A stretch of DNA of 64,000 nt from Arachidicoccus sp. BS20. Lineage in GTDB: Bacteria > Bacteroidota > Bacteroidia > Chitinophagales > Chitinophagaceae. Of the stretch, positions 50,633 to 60,666 are shown piece after piece (positions within the stretch are counted from its first letter, which is position 1; the number at the start of each line of letters is the position of its first letter). The stretch is taken from NCBI RefSeq assembly GCF_001659705.1, contig NZ_CP015971.1, positions 2,046,001-2,110,000 on the forward strand. Direction: 5' to 3'. A model generated the notes under the pieces. It ran no database searches. It was not told the DNA's origin and saw nothing but the letters and a program-made list of their open reading frames with translations. The translations under genes were made by a program, and so were the position numbers.

Positions 50633-52993
50633 TTACTTAAAAGATAAATTGTAGTGAATTCCAATCTTATAACTTCTTCCTGATTGATAAGGTATCAGGT
50701 AGTTGATTGCATTATTGATATTGTTTATCGAAAATTGTACTCTTAAATTTCTGTTCCGAAGAAAAGTATATTGAACGCTTGCATTCAAGAGCCAGAAGCC
50801 GTTTACATAAATATCGTAAGGATCAATAAAACCGTTGTTGTCCAAATCCAAAAAGCCGTACTTACCTCTGTAATTTGCTCTGAACGAGCCGCCCCAGCGA
50901 GAATGATTATCGTCATAATAAAGTTGCAATTGCAACATATTACGACTGCGAACCGGTAGATTGAAATAATCGCTTACGTATGCAGTGCGAACCGGATTGG
51001 CTCGAACAGTCAATTTGCCTGCTTTTATGGAATCTAAAACAGATAAATCTTGAGAATACAGCAATTGATAATTCGCCGCAAAATGAATTCCTTTAAACAA
51101 CTTGCAGGAACCGTTAATTTCCAAGCCTTTATTTACCACGCGGGCAAGATTAATATAGCTGAATATTTGCGCTCCGTTTGTTTTGATTCCTATTTGTTCG
51201 GTAAAAATCATATTTTTGATATGATTATAAAATATATTCGCTTCAAAGCTTAGTTTATTTCCGGCGGTCCATTTCGCATCTATATTGTAGCTGTGGGATG
51301 TTTCTGCTTTAAGATTTTTTATTGAAGATGCAATAGGCCATATACTGCTTACCTGCCCGGCAGAATCCAATGCCGCTAAAGAAGATGATAAAACATTGGC
51401 TCCGATTACTGTGTAGCCTTGGGTAAGATTTGTAAACACTTGATTCATTTGTGTGTATGTCGGCGACTTAAATCCCATTCCGAATGACGGACGAATGGTT
51501 AATTGTGCCAATGGTTTCCATTCTATTCCCGCGGCAGGCGTTATTTTTCCTCCATATATTGAATTACCTGTTGCACGTGCGCCGACGCTTAGTTTTAATC
51601 TTTCGGCGGGCATATATTGTACTTGTGAATATCCGAAATAATCATATTGCCTGCCGCTTTGTTCATTCTCATATCCGTTCAATTGGTTTAATTCGATGCC
51701 TGCGCCTGAAACAGATTGCCATTTATCATCGGCTGAATGTGCAAGATATTGTGCTTCCAATTGATTAGTCCATTCCCCGAAACGGAATGTTTGCAATGCG
51801 CTGTTACTGTTTTGCAATGCAACTTCTTCACCGGAATAATAATGCGTTAAATAATATCTCAGCAGGAAACGGGAACGGTTACTGAAATTATGGTTCCATG
51901 AAGCCAAAACATTTACGTCATTATCATTCAGCTTATCTGTCGTTACGTAATTATCTCCGTAATTTCTCCACATGGAGCTGTTGCGAAATGAATACCTTGT
52001 ACTGATATTTATACGGTCTTTATCGCTTATATCCAGCAGCATTCTTCCTTGTAATGTATTGCTTATATAGGGCGGCGTCGTTTGACCGCCAAGCAAATAT
52101 TGAGGATTGGCATTGAAACCGTCGGTTTTATAAAAATCTTCATTTATCTGATAAAAGCTTTTTCTTTTTCCGAAAGGATTTGCAAACGAAGTATTTGCGT
52201 TAAGCGTATTAAAGCTGCCGTAATTAATACCTGCGGAAAGTTGTCTGCTGCTGATATTTTGGTTTGTAATAATGTTGATTACGCCGCCTAATGCATCAGC
52301 GCCGTAAAGCGTTGAGGTAGCTCCTTTCGTTATTTCGATGTGGTCTATGTTTTGAACGTCAAAGCGGGAAAGGTCAAGATTCCCGTTCATGCGCCCTTCA
52401 ATCGGCATCCCATCCAACAATATTTTTATATATTCCGAACTGAAGCCTTGCATTTGTATTCCTACGGCTCGGTTGCCGGCTCCAAGGTCGCTCACTACAG
52501 CAATACCGGGCTGTTCTTTCAGCACATCATCTAAGCGTTGAGCTCCTGACATTTCGATTTGATGTTTACTTACCCGGCTTTTTGCATTTGTAATCATGTT
52601 GTAGGAAATCAGGTCATCATTCTTTGGTCTACTGCCGGATTCGGATGCTTGAACTTCAACGTCTTTCAAAGAATCGGTATGTTGAAGCGTAATATTTTGT
52701 TCAATATTTTTATCAATATTAAACGAGCCGATAATATGCGGGGTCTCTTTCTGTAAAACAGATACAATGTAATGTCCGTGCGGGATATTTGTAAAGTAAA
52801 AACGATTATGGGGTAATATTACTTTGCGGCTAAAAGAATGTTTATCGTTTTTAAGACGGACAACCAAAGTGTCATTCTGTTTTATTGCTCCGGATATTTT
52901 ACCCTTAAATGTATATTGGCCGTTTGCAGTTGCCGCCCCTAATAAAAATAAAATTGTTACCGCCCATTCGATGACGCTATTTTTCGACCTCAT
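50633..52993 (-). CDS. TonB-dependent outer-membrane receptor, probable haem receptor
   Basis: 786 residues: signal peptide (about 1-25, ending ATANGQ), a short carboxypeptidase-like domain (about 27-105), plug (about 125-240; QPGIAVVSDLGAGNRAVGIQ and ILLDGMPIEGRMNG) and 22-strand barrel with the final YKIGIHYNLSFK. It is divergent from an AraC regulator and shares its promoter motifs with two HmuY-like lipoproteins and an IsdG-like enzyme, so haem is the likely substrate (HmuR-like role). That assignment is from context; haem-receptor His residues were not verified. Confidence 0.85.
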   Translation of the reverse strand: MRSKNSVIEWAVTILFLLGAATANGQYTFKGKISGAIKQNDTLVVRLKNDKHSFSRKVILPHNRFYFTNIPHGHYIVSVLQKETPHIIGSFNIDKNIEQNITLQHTDSLKDVEVQASESGSRPKNDDLISYNMITNAKSRVSKHQIEMSGAQRLDDVLKEQPGIAVVSDLGAGNRAVGIQMQGFSSEYIKILLDGMPIEGRMNGNLDLSRFDVQNIDHIEITKGATSTLYGADALGGVINIITNQNISSRQLSAGINYGSFNTLNANTSFANPFGKRKSFYQINEDFYKTDGFNANPQYLLGGQTTPPYISNTLQGRMLLDISDKDRINISTRYSFRNSSMWRNYGDNYVTTDKLNDNDVNVLASWNHNFSNRSRFLLRYYLTHYYSGEEVALQNSNSALQTFRFGEWTNQLEAQYLAHSADDKWQSVSGAGIELNQLNGYENEQSGRQYDYFGYSQVQYMPAERLKLSVGARATGNSIYGGKITPAAGIEWKPLAQLTIRPSFGMGFKSPTYTQMNQVFTNLTQGYTVIGANVLSSSLAALDSAGQVSSIWPIASSIKNLKAETSHSYNIDAKWTAGNKLSFEANIFYNHIKNMIFTEQIGIKTNGAQIFSYINLARVVNKGLEINGSCKLFKGIHFAANYQLLYSQDLSVLDSIKAGKLTVRANPVRTAYVSDYFNLPVRSRNMLQLQLYYDDNHSRWGGSFRANYRGKYGFLDLDNNGFIDPYDIYVNGFWLLNASVQYTFLRNRNLRVQFSINNINNAINYLIPYQSGRSYKIGIHYNLSFK

Positions 52994-53011: not shown

Positions 53012-53104
53012 CAAATTTACCTGCGGTAATTTACCGGATACGGTATAAATCCTATTGTGTTTACCATTTCAGGTATGTTTTGTCATTGCTATGTCATAAT
53101 TTTG
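53012..53104. promoter_or_regulatory. Divergent control region of receptor and AraC gene
   Basis: Minus strand -7 element TAAATTTG (53019-53012) for the receptor; no -33 box. TACC-N6-GGTA boxes at 53032-53045 and 53062-53075, centres 30 bp apart, the first 19.5 bp upstream of the -7 element. TGTCAT-N5-TGTCAT at 53081-53097 overlaps the plus-strand -7 element TAATTTTG (53097-53104) of the AraC gene. A half box (TTTACCTGCGGTAA, N3) lies at 53016-53029. Confidence 0.65.
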
Positions 53105-53263
53105 CCGAACAAGAATGACTACATGATTTAATATCTCCTAAGTGTCCGGGCAAAGCTGTAAGCATAGAAATTCTTGTTGCCGGAATCCTACGTAGAAAGT
53201 ATAAAAAAAATACGAAGTTTCCGGTTACTTAATTTATTGGTTGACGATAAAAACAAAAAGCAA

Positions 53264-54253
53264 ATGACTCCTTATACAGATTCTTCTAAAATATGCCGAT
53301 TTGATATTCAGCATTTATCACATCTGGACAGTATAAAAGAAACCGAGAGAAATTTATCGGATAATACAGGAAGCAAAAAAGGCTTTGTAAAAGAGGTTTC
53401 AACTCCCGACGGAATTATCTTGGGTTATTACAATGTTTTTTCTCAAAGAAATCAAGAAATCACTTTATGTAATGAAACGCCATATTTTCAGCTCAGCTTC
53501 AATATTCTCGGCTCCAAACAATATAAAATAAAATCTTCGGGAAAAGAAGCATTGAATTTAAAATCGCTTCAATACAATTACCTGCATTTGCCCAAAGGCG
53601 ATATGTGCATAGAATGGCAAGGCAACCAAAAACTGGAATCTTTTGAACTTGGAGTAACCGAGCATTTCTTTAATCATATTTTGCCTGAAAGCCATCCTAT
53701 ACATGACCGAATCGAAAAATTACAAAAAGGCAGCGGCGACTGTGCGCTGGGCAAAAACAATCTTCCGTTGCGAACGGAATGTACCGCCATCTTGTATCAA
53801 ATGCTTAACTGTCCGATGACAGGACATTTAAAACGCTTGTACATTCATGCAAAAACCATAGAGCTTATTTCTCTGCAACTCAGGCAGTTTGAAGAAGTTT
53901 GTAACACGCATTCTTACAAAGAAGCCGATAAAAAACTAACGAAAGAAGAAATTGAGCGAATGTATCTGGCAAAAGAAATTGTTGAAAAAAATCATAATCA
54001 ACCATGCCGGCTGATTGATTTGGCACATAGTGTAGGAACGAATGATACTTATCTCAAAAAACATTTTAAAATCGTATTCGGAACAACAGTGTTTGCTCAC
54101 TTGTTGCAATTCAAAATGGAAAAAGCCATGCAGTTTTTGAAAGACGGCTATAGTATTTCCGATGTTGCCGGTCTTACCGGATACAACCGGATATCGCATT
54201 TTTCCAGAGCCTTTAAAAAGCATTTCGGTTTTCCGCCCAATAAAGTAAAATAG
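53264..54253 (+). CDS. AraC family regulator (PchR-like)
   Basis: 329 residues from ATG 53264; a TTG at 53174 would add 30 residues and cannot be excluded. N-terminal sensing part (about 1-210) and two AraC helix-turn-helices (about 235-325; PCRLIDLAHSVGTNDTYLKK and GYSISDVAGLTGYNRISHFS). Its length and the typical ending RAFKKHFGFPPNKVK resemble PchR/YbtA regulators of siderophore and haem uptake in Bacteroidota. It most likely binds the TACC-N6-GGTA boxes of both intergenic regions and activates the locus. Confidence 0.9.
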   Translation: MTPYTDSSKICRFDIQHLSHLDSIKETERNLSDNTGSKKGFVKEVSTPDGIILGYYNVFSQRNQEITLCNETPYFQLSFNILGSKQYKIKSSGKEALNLKSLQYNYLHLPKGDMCIEWQGNQKLESFELGVTEHFFNHILPESHPIHDRIEKLQKGSGDCALGKNNLPLRTECTAILYQMLNCPMTGHLKRLYIHAKTIELISLQLRQFEEVCNTHSYKEADKKLTKEEIERMYLAKEIVEKNHNQPCRLIDLAHSVGTNDTYLKKHFKIVFGTTVFAHLLQFKMEKAMQFLKDGYSISDVAGLTGYNRISHFSRAFKKHFGFPPNKVK

Positions 54254-54268
54254 CGGGTTGCGGCATAA

Positions 54269-54307
54269 AAAATAAAAGAGGGAAATCATACATCCCTCTT
54301 TTATTTT
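54269..54307. terminator. Bidirectional terminator between AraC gene and miniprotein
   Basis: AAAATAAAAGAGGGA / TCCCTCTTTTATTTT, 15 bp with a nine-base loop. The right arm contains the stop codon of the miniprotein on the minus strand. Confidence 0.85.
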
Positions 54308-54438
54308 GTTATCCATAATGCGAATATTATCCAACTGATGATTTTAAGTAAAATCAACAGGAAAAACCATTTTCCGTATTTTTTTCGCGTTTTGGAAAAT
54401 ACAGGCCGATTGAGCAGCTCTCTTATCCGACCAATCAC
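54301..54438 (-). CDS. 45-residue membrane miniprotein, overlapping the monooxygenase stop
   Basis: GTG start (54438-54436) shares one base with the TAG stop of the monooxygenase (TAGTG), so translation is likely coupled. Basic N-terminal part (MIGRIRELLNRPVF, then SKTRKKYGK), one hydrophobic helix (about residues 24-42, FFLLILLKIISWIIFALW) and the ending ITK*. Positive-inside charge suggests an N-in membrane protein. No family was recognised. Conserved coding cannot be shown from one genome, but the length, charge and overlap make a real gene plausible. Confidence 0.55.
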   Translation of the reverse strand: MIGRIRELLNRPVFSKTRKKYGKWFFLLILLKIISWIIFALWITK

Positions 54439-54767
54439 TACTCGGCAATAATTTGGTAAACTTTAAAATCGCTTTTCATAGGAGCCGGTTTGCCTTCTTT
54501 TTTGGCTTGTTCCAAAATAGCAAAACCTCTTTTATGCCCTTCCAAAAAAGCTTCTGATTTTGTCCAATTCTCAAATGCTTCTTTTGAATCCCAGTGGCTT
54601 AGTATCAGATAAGGCTCTCCCTGCTTTGCAGGTTTTAAAACTTCCATATCTATAAATCCCGGTTCTTTATCGATTGCACCTTTTCTGGTTGCAAATAATT
54701 CTTCAAAAGTTTCTTCAAATTCGGGCAGACAACTTATGTAGTTGATAGCTGCAAAATTTTTCTTCAT
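54438..54767 (-). CDS. IsdG/HmoA-like haem-degrading monooxygenase (ABM domain)
   Basis: 109 residues with a ferredoxin-like antibiotic-biosynthesis-monooxygenase fold. The IsdG catalytic triad fits: Asn9 (AINYI), Trp68 (FENWTK) and His78 (EGHKRG), with the ten-residue Trp-His spacing known from IsdG (Trp67, His77). Opens haem and frees iron in the cytoplasm. Transcribed away from the HmuY genes, with TATTTTTG (minus, 54797-54790) as -7 element and control motifs upstream. Confidence 0.85.
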   Translation of the reverse strand: MKKNFAAINYISCLPEFEETFEELFATRKGAIDKEPGFIDMEVLKPAKQGEPYLILSHWDSKEAFENWTKSEAFLEGHKRGFAILEQAKKEGKPAPMKSDFKVYQIIAE

Positions 54768-54789
54768 ACATTAAATTTTTTATTTCTCA

Positions 54790-54938
54790 CAAAAATAGAA
54801 ATGTCATAATAATGTCATTTTAAATAGGGGGAATAATATTTACCGAATACGGTATTTCTTGAAATTATTAAAAATACCTTATATGGTAAACGCTTGGTCA
54901 GTATTTCCCATATTGGTAAACGAGTGTTGCGACTTTTG
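54790..54938. promoter_or_regulatory. Divergent control region of monooxygenase and HmuY genes
   Basis: Three TACC-N6-GGTA boxes: 54841-54854, 54875-54888 and 54905-54918 (the last with TTCC). The latter two have centres 30 bp apart, the nearest 19.5 bp upstream of GACTTTTG (54931-54938), a near-consensus -7 element for the HmuY genes. TGTCAT-N5-TGTCAT at 54802-54818 lies just upstream of the monooxygenase -7 element (54790-54797). Confidence 0.65.
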
Positions 54939-54955: not shown

Positions 54956-55663
54956 ATGATTAAAGGAGTTTTAAACAAATGCGGAGTATTAATAATTGCT
55001 TTATCCGTATTTTGGGGATGCAGCAAAGACAATGCAACATCTGCCGATGCGGGTGCCGCCGGTCAGGGAACATACGTTTATAATCTCGCAGGCGATACCG
55101 CTGCATCGGTGGGTATTGAAGAGGGTAAAACACAGAGGGCATTCTACCCGCTTTTATTCGATTTTTCTACAGGCGAATCTCATTTATTGAAAACCGCTGC
55201 CGACTCGGCACAATACGTTACGGGAAACTGGGATATTGCCTTTACGGCACAATATAATTCCATAGTGATTCCCAATAACGGCAGCTATCAGAACACACTC
55301 GGTTACGGAGGTCCAGGCTCATTCATTATTATGGCAATAAATACTGCCTTTGATAAGGTAACTGCGGCGCCAAGCGACGATGCAATGAAAGCCGCAGCGA
55401 TGCAGAGTATCGGGTGGGACCAGGGGGATGGACAAGGGTGGTTTTATTACAGCACTAATAATCATATTTGCGTTGCAGTTACCGACAGGACATTTATCTT
55501 CAAAACGAGTGACGGATTGTATGGGAAAGTAGAATTTATCAGTATTTATAAAGACCACCCGGCGGTAGTTACAGACTTATATTGGCCGGCTCCCTATCTT
55601 TCATTCCGTTACTTTTTGCAAAAAGACGGCAGCACGAATCTTACGACGTCTTCAAATTCTTAA
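54956..55663 (+). CDS. HmuY-like haem-binding lipoprotein 1
   Basis: 235 residues. Lipoprotein signal with Cys in VFWGC (about residue 22). Family features: NWDIAFTAQYNSIVIPNNG (about 82-100) and, near the end, GWFYYSTNNHICVAV, RTFIFKTSDGLYGKVEFISI and YLSFRYFLQKDG. In Porphyromonas HmuY such a protein binds haem and hands it to the HmuR receptor. A conserved His in the NNHI loop is present. Surface or outer-membrane anchored. Second HmuY-like gene 36 bases downstream, same operon. Confidence 0.82.
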   Translation: MIKGVLNKCGVLIIALSVFWGCSKDNATSADAGAAGQGTYVYNLAGDTAASVGIEEGKTQRAFYPLLFDFSTGESHLLKTAADSAQYVTGNWDIAFTAQYNSIVIPNNGSYQNTLGYGGPGSFIIMAINTAFDKVTAAPSDDAMKAAAMQSIGWDQGDGQGWFYYSTNNHICVAVTDRTFIFKTSDGLYGKVEFISIYKDHPAVVTDLYWPAPYLSFRYFLQKDGSTNLTTSSNS

Positions 55664-55699: not shown

Positions 55700-56380
55700 A
55701 TGAAAAAACAGTTAACAAACATTGCATTATTGGCAGCCGTAACAATTATGGCATTTTCTTGCAGCAAAAATGATAGTAACACATCAATTCCCGATAACGG
55801 GGATAACGGGATGTCAATAGGCGATACTATTTCGTTGGATAACAGTTATACCAAAGGATATCTTACGCTGATTGCGGAAAAAACATTTTATGTGGGCAAT
55901 TTTACACAAGGCACAGGTGTTAATACTACGGATACTTTTGCCTTTGCTACGAAAAATGCTAATTTTTATTACAGCCTGTCGGGCTTTAAAGGAGATTCCA
56001 CAGATTATGATATTTCATTTAACAAATCATACGCATTAACCGTAGATACATCCAAATACAAGCTTGCATTCATCAACAAATCATTCGAAGATGTTACGGA
56101 TACCACAGGCGGAACATTCATACCGACAGGACTGGCAGGTATGAATAATACTTATCCGTCCAATGATTCGGTTCCCACCGCTTCAGGTTGGTATATATAT
56201 AACGCTACTACGCATATTGTACAGGCATACAGCACGCGCACTTATATAATTACCAATAAATCTACCGGCGACTATTACAAGTTCCACATCGTAAGCATGT
56301 ATTCGGGCGGTCAACCGAATGCTGCGACAGCAGCGTTAAATTTTCCGTACTACCATTTTGAATATATGAAGTTGAATTAG
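55700..56380 (+). CDS. HmuY-like haem-binding lipoprotein 2
   Basis: 226 residues. Lipoprotein signal with Cys in MAFSC (about residue 21). C-terminal half is HmuY-like: GWYIYNATTHIVQAYSTRTY, IITNKSTGDYYKFHIVSMYS and YYHFEYMKLN; the N-terminal half (DYDISFNKSYALTV) is diverged from its neighbour. Likely a paralogue with another ligand preference or a relay function. Terminator follows at 56427. Confidence 0.75.
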   Translation: MKKQLTNIALLAAVTIMAFSCSKNDSNTSIPDNGDNGMSIGDTISLDNSYTKGYLTLIAEKTFYVGNFTQGTGVNTTDTFAFATKNANFYYSLSGFKGDSTDYDISFNKSYALTVDTSKYKLAFINKSFEDVTDTTGGTFIPTGLAGMNNTYPSNDSVPTASGWYIYNATTHIVQAYSTRTYIITNKSTGDYYKFHIVSMYSGGQPNAATAALNFPYYHFEYMKLN

Positions 56381-59530: not shown

Positions 59531-60190
59531 TTAAACGTGTTCTAAGCTTATTTCTTGTTCGATATTTCCCAACCGCTTAGCCCAATTCTCCAAAATCTGT
59601 TGCCTGTCTTTGTTACTGATTCTTTCTATCGAATAATGTATTTCGGGTTGCAGAAGCGAGAAGCCCGTAAATTGTAAAACGCCTCGTTGAATCGGTAATA
59701 AAATTTCTTCAATCGTTCCGTATTTATCAGAAACATAATTTTTTTCGGGTCCGCCTGCGGTTAAAGACAAGATAGCTTTTTTCCCTTTTAAAAATCCATT
59801 GCCGAAAATCTTTCCGTTGTCATAAAATTTGCCCTTTGCGAAAACTTTGTCTACCCAACCTTTCAACATCGCGGGAACGGAAAACCACCAAAGCGGAAAT
59901 TGCCAAATCATTACATCGCACCAAATGATTTTCTCTTGTTCGGCACAAATATCATCTGCGAAAGAATCGTTTTCACAAGCGAAAAGTTCTTCAGCTTGTT
60001 GATTAAAAACGGCTTCGTTTTTCATGCTCGTGAAATTTCCTCTGTCCGAAACGGGATTAAAATTCATTCGATATAAATCGGAAATTTTTACTTCATGGCC
60101 TGCATTGCTCAATGTTTCAATGCCTTTACGAAACATGGCGCCGTTAAAACTTTTTTCTTCAGGATGAGCTAAGACAATAAGAATGTTCAT
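59531..60190 (-). CDS. NAD(P)H dehydrogenase (quinone)/FMN oxidoreductase
   Basis: 219 residues of the flavodoxin-like NQO1/KefF family: NILIVLAHPEEKSFNGAMF (about 2-20) binds FMN, WQFPLWWFSVPAMLKGWVDK and LTAGGPEKNY are family motifs. Two-electron reduction of quinones or electrophiles. Divergent from an HxlR-type regulator, a common pair in quinone and electrophile stress. The promoter TTG-N20-TAGTTTTG lies at 60252-60222. Confidence 0.9.
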   Translation of the reverse strand: MNILIVLAHPEEKSFNGAMFRKGIETLSNAGHEVKISDLYRMNFNPVSDRGNFTSMKNEAVFNQQAEELFACENDSFADDICAEQEKIIWCDVMIWQFPLWWFSVPAMLKGWVDKVFAKGKFYDNGKIFGNGFLKGKKAILSLTAGGPEKNYVSDKYGTIEEILLPIQRGVLQFTGFSLLQPEIHYSIERISNKDRQQILENWAKRLGNIEQEISLEHV

Positions 60191-60221
60191 TGTTGTAGTT
60201 TTACATTTTAAAAGATGAATG

Positions 60222-60252
60222 CAAAACTATTTGTCTGATTCTTCTTATGCAA
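60222..60252 (-). promoter_or_regulatory. Promoter of the quinone reductase gene
   Basis: Minus strand TTG (60252-60250), 20 bases, TAGTTTTG (60229-60222). It overlaps the upstream ATG 60247 of the HxlR frame, favouring the later HxlR start. Confidence 0.55.
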
Positions 60253-60291
60253 GGAAGCAGCGAGTTGTTAGCAGCGAACAATTTTGTAAGT

Positions 60292-60666
60292 ATGGCAAAA
60301 CGAAAATTATCAAGCACAAATAGTATTAATCGCGAAGCTTTAATGAAAGCTTGCGGTTCGATGTATGCAACGATTATTCTTTCAGGAAGATGGAAGCTGA
60401 AGATTATTTATGCGCTTGCTAAAGGCGATACACGCTTTTCAGAATTGAAAGAGTATATCCCGAACATTTCGGATAGAATGCTTACATTACAATTGCGCGA
60501 ACTGGAAAACGATCAATTGATTGAACGAACTGTTTTTCCCGAAGTGCCGCCGCGCGTGGAATATAGAATGACAGAAAGCACAAAAAAATTATTTTCCGTT
60601 TTACAAAGCCTTGAAAAATGGGGCAACGAGCATAAAGAAAATTTATCCGAAACAAATAAACATTGA
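60292..60666 (+). CDS. HxlR family transcriptional regulator
   Basis: 124 residues from ATG 60292; ATG 60247 would add 15. Winged helix of the HxlR type: NREALMKACGSMYATIILSG, RWKLKIIYALAKGDTRFSEL, ISDRMLTLQLRELENDQLIER and PRVEYRMTESTKKL. Acts as a dimer, in this class often sensing quinones or aldehydes via a Cys (one Cys, in KACGS). Likely represses the divergent reductase gene. Confidence 0.9.
   Translation: MAKRKLSSTNSINREALMKACGSMYATIILSGRWKLKIIYALAKGDTRFSELKEYIPNISDRMLTLQLRELENDQLIERTVFPEVPPRVEYRMTESTKKLFSVLQSLEKWGNEHKENLSETNKH

Follow-up and report, generated by a model that had tools for sequence, protein, structure and literature searches.

Tandem boxes with fixed promoter geometry at a predicted AraC-regulated heme acquisition locus of Arachidicoccus sp. 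BS20 and related Chitinophagaceae

In the genome of Arachidicoccus sp. BS20 (hereafter G000), a stretch of 64,000 nt (the window; contig NZ_CP015971.1, positions 2,046,001 to 2,110,000) carries a locus that reads as a predicted system of heme capture, import and degradation, in which the gene of an AraC-type regulator lies among genes for a TonB-dependent receptor, an IsdG-like monooxygenase candidate and a HmuY-family lipoprotein. Its intergenic regions contain bipartite TACC-N6-GGTA boxes that are very probably operators of the adjacent regulator. As a dimer, this AraC-type protein would activate heme capture and import and would also act on the heme-degrading enzyme. The initial annotation had assigned these boxes to this regulator, with one box per monomer, a pair per dimer and activated promoters; this assignment is favoured by the distance between box and promoter kept in 25 of 26 loci with the regulator, by its absence at six HmuY loci without it, and by the predicted fold of the protein.

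Boxes and promoter elements in the window

Each box is bipartite and spans 14 bp, with sub-motif A (TACC; mostly YTCC in relatives) and sub-motif B (GGTA; GGTN in relatives) separated by six positions. The boxes are arranged in tandem direct repeat, and the proximal ones end 12 nt before the -7 elements of the receptor and HmuY promoters. The five boxes initially annotated were found at their coordinates; four are exact, and the last one reads TTCC-N6-GGTA. The boxes and the -7 elements are as follows:

53012..53019, minus strand: receptor -7 element TAAATTTG, fitting TAnnTTTG, 12 nt from the proximal box
53032..53045, minus strand: proximal receptor box, TACCGTATCCGGTA toward the receptor, exact; kept in the ortholog (L002/L160) at the equal 12-nt distance
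53062..53075, minus strand: distal receptor box, 30 bp upstream, exact; in the ortholog this box has one mismatch and lies at exactly 30 bp
53097..53104, plus strand: putative araC -7 element TAATTTTG, a consensus match only
54790..54797, minus strand: monooxygenase -7 element TATTTTTG
54820..54833, minus strand: putative degenerate proximal box of the monooxygenase promoter, TTCC-N6-TTAA, 21 bp from the next box
54841..54854, minus strand: box TACCGTATTCGGTA of the monooxygenase promoter, 43 nt from its -7 element
54875..54888, plus strand: distal HmuY-promoter box, exact; exact in the ortholog too, 42 nt from the -7
54905..54918, plus strand: proximal HmuY-promoter box TTCCCATATTGGTA, 12 nt from the -7, as in relatives
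54931..54938, plus strand: HmuY -7 element GACTTTTG, 12 nt from the proximal box

The receptor and HmuY promoters share the annotated geometry, with box centres at distances of 19.5 and 49.5 bp from the -7 element, counted from its first base. The 30-bp spacing of the pairs stood as well, but not its reading as three exact helical turns, 30 bp being 2.86 turns of B-DNA. Nor do all boxes belong to 30-bp pairs: the box at 54841-54854 lies outside both and instead precedes the divergent heme-monooxygenase gene, its distance to the -7 element of that gene being 43 nt. This distance is seen in seven loci of the 20-locus set described below (the window included) and in one further locus, L105. The TTCC-N6-TTAA sequence next to it may represent a degenerate box in the window genome; seven relatives carry TCC-N6-GGC at this place.

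All four exact matches to TACC-N6-GGTA in the window are located at this locus, and allowing up to one mismatch gave 21 matches versus 8.93 (sd 3.04) in shuffled sequence. At genome density, the probability of at least four exact boxes falling within the 458 intergenic bp is P ~5e-11. The bare core is not over-represented genome-wide and is uninformative on that scale: the exact 14-mer occurs 46 times in 3,492,500 bp versus 50 times for a reversed-pattern control. A random genome-wide frequency of the motif, which by the initial annotation would have spoken against its proposal, was thus formally borne out for the 14-mer alone, but not for the 14-mer in its promoter geometry, since the pattern WCC-N6-GGT-N13-KAnnTTTGC has two matches in the window genome, namely the receptor and HmuY promoters, with a control count of one. 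Exact 30-bp pairs (CC-N6-GGTA twice) are likewise confined to these two promoters in G000. The same loose pair pattern also has exact matches in three larger genomes of the same genus without an AraC ortholog (two in G275, three in G187 and one in G018), which look like chance occurrences. The one-mismatch form of the pair pattern was rejected as a means of finding further targets, being too loose (15 matches versus 13 in controls, G000). A wider regulon was sought through a box placed 12 nt before a -7 element; 14 matches were obtained in nine genomes, eight at AraC loci and six elsewhere, with a control total of ten.

Two further exact boxes of G000, 28 bp apart (L182:1279-1320; G000:C1:1806278-1806319, starting at 1806278 and 1806306), were considered as an operator and rejected. 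They lie inside a GGTACC-rich repeat, with an integrase-like open reading frame on one side and a tRNA-like stretch on the other (by eye), and, likewise by eye, show no fitting -7 element; the region looks like an attachment site rather than an operator.

Conservation of the layout with the regulator

The closest ortholog of the regulator, in G067, is 68% identical (tblastn). At the G067 receptor promoter the proximal box is exact and the distal one has one mismatch, while at its HmuY promoter the distal box is exact and the proximal one has one mismatch; the spacing is exactly 30 bp in both pairs, both proximal boxes lie 12 nt from the -7 element, and the monooxygenase-side box lies 43 nt from its own. 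With up to five candidates scored per genome, AraC orthologs at E<1e-110 were detected in 15 of 394 genomes of the family; HmuY and AraC occur together in 14 of the 394, AraC alone in one and HmuY alone in six. With the same number of candidates per genome, no member of this AraC subfamily beyond G000 was found at E<=1e-70 among 395 class-level genomes. The five genomes that share the genus of G000 likewise contained no match at E<=1e-75.

Scanning named genomes with a seven-row AraC alignment yielded 15 loci from Chitinophaga, Niastella, Filimonas and metagenome-assembled genomes of Chitinophagaceae. Alignment A2 includes an L043 AraC row that appears frameshifted at both ends and was used unchanged. 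In a set of 20 loci (177,845 bp; L003 and L006 excluded as duplicates of L036 and L042), the distance from box to [GT]AnnTTTG was 12 nt in 16 instances, 33 nt in 15, 43 nt in seven and 42 nt in three, with zero or one instance at any other distance. Of nine further loci, three (L094, L095 and L099) duplicate named loci and bring no new evidence. Across a set of 26 AraC loci (257,448 bp), distances to [GTC]AnnTTTG peaked at 12 nt (27), 33 nt (30) and 43 nt (9), with three instances each at 42 and 44 nt, and the remaining distances had a mean of 0.23 and a maximum of 2. In 40 dinucleotide shuffles of these loci the corresponding values were 0.15, 0.30 and 0.275 at 12, 33 and 43 nt, with three or fewer at any distance. 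A box at 12, 33 or 42 nt is present in 25 of the 26 loci, so the box-promoter layout is kept in related bacteria. Chance similarity of short intergenic motifs could draw on the control-level frequency of the 14-mer and on the six of 14 geometry matches outside AraC loci, next to a control total of ten; set against the distance histograms, the improbable local cluster and the identical spacings retained in L002, it has almost no credibility.

The form and spacing of the box proved less general than the layout. The palindrome and the 30-bp spacing hold in G000 and G067, whereas the box of the relatives is mostly the asymmetric YTCC-N6-GGTN, with tandem copies usually 21 bp apart; of the 43 pairs found at distances up to 60 bp, a few of them counted on both strands, 21 have this spacing. 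The 33 promoters with 21-bp spacing read ttTTCC-N6-GGTA-gct-TTTCTCC-N6-GGTCa-N11-GAnnTTTGCa, and the -7 element of the collected receptor- and HmuY-type promoters is [GC]AnnTTTG in 35 of 37. Palindrome and 30-bp spacing are thus lineage features, found among the loci examined in G000 and G067 only; five other genomes of the first genus and one other of the second contained no further member of the 30-bp lineage.

Promoters were also scored individually. A promoter passed when at least five of six box positions matched 12 nt from the best candidate -7 element of the region, or 43 nt from it in the case of the monooxygenase; this was so for 12 of 19 receptor, 15 of 18 HmuY and eight of 16 monooxygenase promoters. 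HmuY regions of six genomes without an AraC ortholog (52,006 bp) contained no box at 12, 33, 42 or 43 nt, and their single match was at 10 nt. Ten more distant AraC-relative loci (38,355 bp) gave one match each at 3 and 47 nt. A Fisher test of 25/26 versus 0/6 gives p=8e-6, a value that overstates the independence of the loci.

Boxes also precede other genes beside three divergent AraC relatives. In L044 (5001-9073) and L158 (1833-5150), AraC relatives with 37-38% identity are followed by a box pair and, by eye, an uptake set resembling periplasmic-binding-protein, FecCD and ATPase genes. In L159 (841-8593; G114), a second AraC relative stands by a TonB-receptor-like gene and a siderophore-biosynthesis-like operon (by eye), and a box pair is situated upstream of a -7-like CAGCTTTG. 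Because the layout is missing at the six HmuY loci without an AraC ortholog and the box is found elsewhere with the three divergent relatives, the box follows the regulator.

This pattern also bears on the identity of the binding protein. Sites of the CRP type are palindromes with an N6 centre, and the window-genome box has just this form, so that it could be bound by a different homodimeric regulator of the CRP/FNR, GntR or TetR kind whose gene lies elsewhere, the AraC gene being incidental. We regard this as very improbable: the relatives' box is mostly a non-palindromic YTCC-N6-GGTN in direct repeat, it accompanies AraC genes with other targets and is missing from HmuY regions that lack the ortholog, and within G000 it occurs with promoter geometry at this locus only.

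Several observations weigh against the assignment to the AraC regulator. One of the 26 loci, L004, fails the strict pattern and has degenerate boxes only. In the scoring of individual promoters, seven of 19 receptor promoters (two giving a weak signal and five none), three of 18 HmuY promoters and eight of 16 monooxygenase promoters remained below five of six positions; in two of the three HmuY misses (L041 and L042), the HmuY gene follows the receptor gene on the same strand. The 30-bp spacing rests on four promoters, all from G000 and G067. The six loci without an AraC ortholog are few and related, and two of their regions contain other, more distant AraC genes (35% identity over a fragment in G036, 25% in G214). 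Control loci of AraC paralogs (L008-L030, 86,402 bp) had one match each at 12, 37, 43 and 53 nt. To these points belong the genome-wide count of the exact 14-mer and the control match of the geometry pattern given above. Moreover, the 26 loci were hand-picked and several are close kin (by eye, for example, L034/L035 and L037/L038/L040/L043/L045), so that the counts are not independent.

Proposed mechanism and comparison with known systems

In Flavobacterium psychrophilum, the TAnnTTTG element occupies -12 to -5 (PMC9723704), and all placements relative to the transcription start given here assume the same. On this assumption, the proximal boxes of the receptor and HmuY promoters would extend from -38 to -25, over the -33 region, and the distal boxes from -59 to -46 (21-bp spacing) or -68 to -55 (30-bp spacing); the monooxygenase boxes of the relatives would lie at -48 to -35 and -69 to -56. 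The earlier description of the receptor promoter as one without a -33 box is amended accordingly: a box would cover the -33 region at the receptor and the HmuY promoters alike. As the receptor and HmuY boxes lie about one turn closer than the monooxygenase boxes, the same regulator would use two promoter distances.

The regulator has the features of the dimeric subclass of the AraC/XylS family, a C-terminal domain of ~100 aa with two helix-turn-helix (HTH) motifs and an N-terminal cupin domain for ligand binding and dimerisation; in the modelled protein, the N-half resembles AraC, RhaR and BgaR and the C-half resembles AraC and MarA. We hypothesize that one box is contacted by both HTH motifs of one monomer and that the cupin-type domain joins two monomers, so that a dimer holds two boxes. 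When the signal is present, which the neighbouring genes suggest is heme or the iron source imported by the adjacent receptor, the dimer would be placed over the -33 region and bring in RNA polymerase at a promoter that has no -33 element of its own. At the divergent monooxygenase gene, the same protein would act through boxes about one helical turn further upstream. A single local regulator would in this way coordinate capture by HmuY, import by the receptor and degradation by the monooxygenase.

The XylS site is TGCA-N6-GGNTA-N6-TGCA-N6-GGNTA, a 21-bp repeat, and the CphR sites span -35 to -49 and -55 to -69 with one HTH per sub-motif (PMC4514859 and PMC6205950, respectively). XylS at Pm and CphR thus likewise use two direct repeats of the type A-N6-B with a GG-containing B. 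The 21-bp period of XylS is matched in the relatives, while the window receptor and HmuY promoters keep A-N6-B at 30 bp; the XylS letters TGCA and GGNTA are not matched, A being mostly YTCC (TACC in the window) and B GGTN. The relatives' monooxygenase boxes (about -35 to -48 and -56 to -69) are near the CphR positions, whereas the receptor and HmuY boxes are ~10 bp nearer the start site than in XylS and CphR. The proximal XylS repeat ends near -35; here the proximal box would end near -25 at the receptor and HmuY promoters and near -35 at the relatives' monooxygenase promoters.

The same geometry could suit a protein that mainly represses, blocking RNA polymerase over -33 until heme or iron releases it: a proximal box at -38 to -25 would cover the usual site of sigma region 4, and the CphR site is ~10 bp further upstream (PMC6205950). 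Such a role seems unlikely, since XylS and CphR, which have a similar tandem layout, are activators, and the receptor and HmuY -7 elements, mostly off TAnnTTTG, would confer weak basal activity. The XylS/CphR-like layout together with the predominance of [GC]AnnTTTG therefore points to activation by the AraC dimer. A more far-reaching proposal is tentative: a Bacteroidota AraC activator positioned one turn closer to the start site than XylS-type class II activators and replacing sigma region 4 contacts at -33, retaining the XylS/CphR position at the heme-degradation promoter, and re-spaced from 21 to 30 bp in one lineage with changes in box and recognition helix.

HmuY-family proteins are also paired with a TonB-dependent receptor in the hmu locus of Porphyromonas gingivalis and the hfp locus of F. 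psychrophilum. The latter is iron-responsive and Fur is discussed by the authors; the word 'AraC' was counted zero times in that article (PMC9331221). In the literature searched, most subscription papers and all bioRxiv preprints lying outside it, no AraC operator was found described for a HmuY locus or for Chitinophagaceae. The conserved cis-regulatory architecture of the heme locus would thus be new, while the XylS/CphR-like type of AraC switch is already known. Three features are unusual: the 30-bp spacing, the predicted overlap of the proximal box with the -33 region and, at the heme-degradation promoter, the TGTCA-N6-TGTCA repeat.

PchR of Pseudomonas is an AraC-type regulator of siderophore uptake that acts on a TonB-dependent receptor for an iron source. 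In this respect the regulators described here would be of a similar type, and some relatives adjoin siderophore-like or FecCD-type genes (by eye); the target differs, being a HmuY/heme locus in Chitinophagaceae. For heme acquisition in this family, the proposal specifies operators and promoters precisely enough to be falsified, and it would place HmuY capture, TonB-dependent import and heme degradation under a single local regulator. The spacing change seen in nature, from 21 to 30 bp, along with the two distances to the promoter, would also offer a compact system for studying the spacing tolerance of AraC dimers and the atypical sigma factor of Bacteroidota.

Genes of the locus and the TGTCA repeat

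The genes and direct repeats of the locus are as follows:

50633..52993, minus strand: TonB-dependent receptor gene, heme/hemoglobin-type candidate (Pfam Plug and TonB_dep_Rec_b-barrel)
53081..53096, plus strand: direct repeat TGTCA-N6-TGTCA, immediately preceding the putative araC -7 element
53264..54253, plus strand: AraC-type regulator, 329 aa from ATG (the open reading frame opens at TTG 53174)
54438..54767, minus strand: ABM-fold IsdG/HmoB/MhuD-like heme-degrading monooxygenase candidate (Pfam ABM)
54802..54817, minus strand: TGTCA-N6-TGTCA, which reads TGACA-N6-TGACA toward the monooxygenase gene and is separated from its -7 element by 4 nt
54956..55663, plus strand: HmuY-family hemophore-like lipoprotein gene (Pfam HmuY, E=4.2e-08)
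55700..56380, plus strand: second lipoprotein, a weak HmuY relative, 75% identical in G067 and with a weak match in other HmuY loci

The receptor scored under the NCBIfam cut-offs of the 25 models shown, and the second lipoprotein (55700-56380), likely encoded on the HmuY transcript, had no Pfam match at E<=0.001. PDB profile matches of the monooxygenase candidate were HmoB, Rv3592 (MhuD), IsdI and IsdG. Residues N9, W68 and H78 are invariant in ten aligned orthologs and presumably correspond to the IsdG catalytic triad; the conserved N, W and H of IsdG, HmoB and MhuD are catalytic. The candidate thus appears to share both the profile match and these residues with the known enzymes, and it differs in its predicted placement under AraC boxes and a TGTCA repeat.

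Sixteen loci of the 20-locus set bear a monooxygenase gene, and 15 of them (the window, L004, L031-L041, L043 and L045) have an exact TGTCA-N6-TGTCA at this gene; L002 has TGCCA. The araC-side repeat has no exact copy at that position in the other 19 loci of the set. Extended to TGACA-N6-TGACA-N4-TAnnTTTG, the element at the monooxygenase gene is exact in G000, G177 and G039 and has one mismatch in G067; in nine genomes, one further single-mismatch match was found elsewhere, in G114, with a control total of three. With the -7 element attached, the repeat has one match in G000. The plain repeat is near control level in four genomes (20 versus 15). Since the stricter YTGTCA-N5-YTGTCA gave nine matches versus one in the control, a small genome-wide TGTCA regulon could exist. 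We take the 11-bp period of the repeat to resemble boxes of the OmpR/PhoB type. By eye, four other TGTCA copies of G000 (L074, L078, L082 and L092) lie near ferrochelatase/HemJ-like genes, a ferredoxin-NADP-reductase-like gene, a TonB/GntR pair and cytochrome c genes.

Further along the window, positions 59531-60666 carry a divergent pair of genes, one for a flavodoxin-fold protein and one for an HxlR-type regulator.

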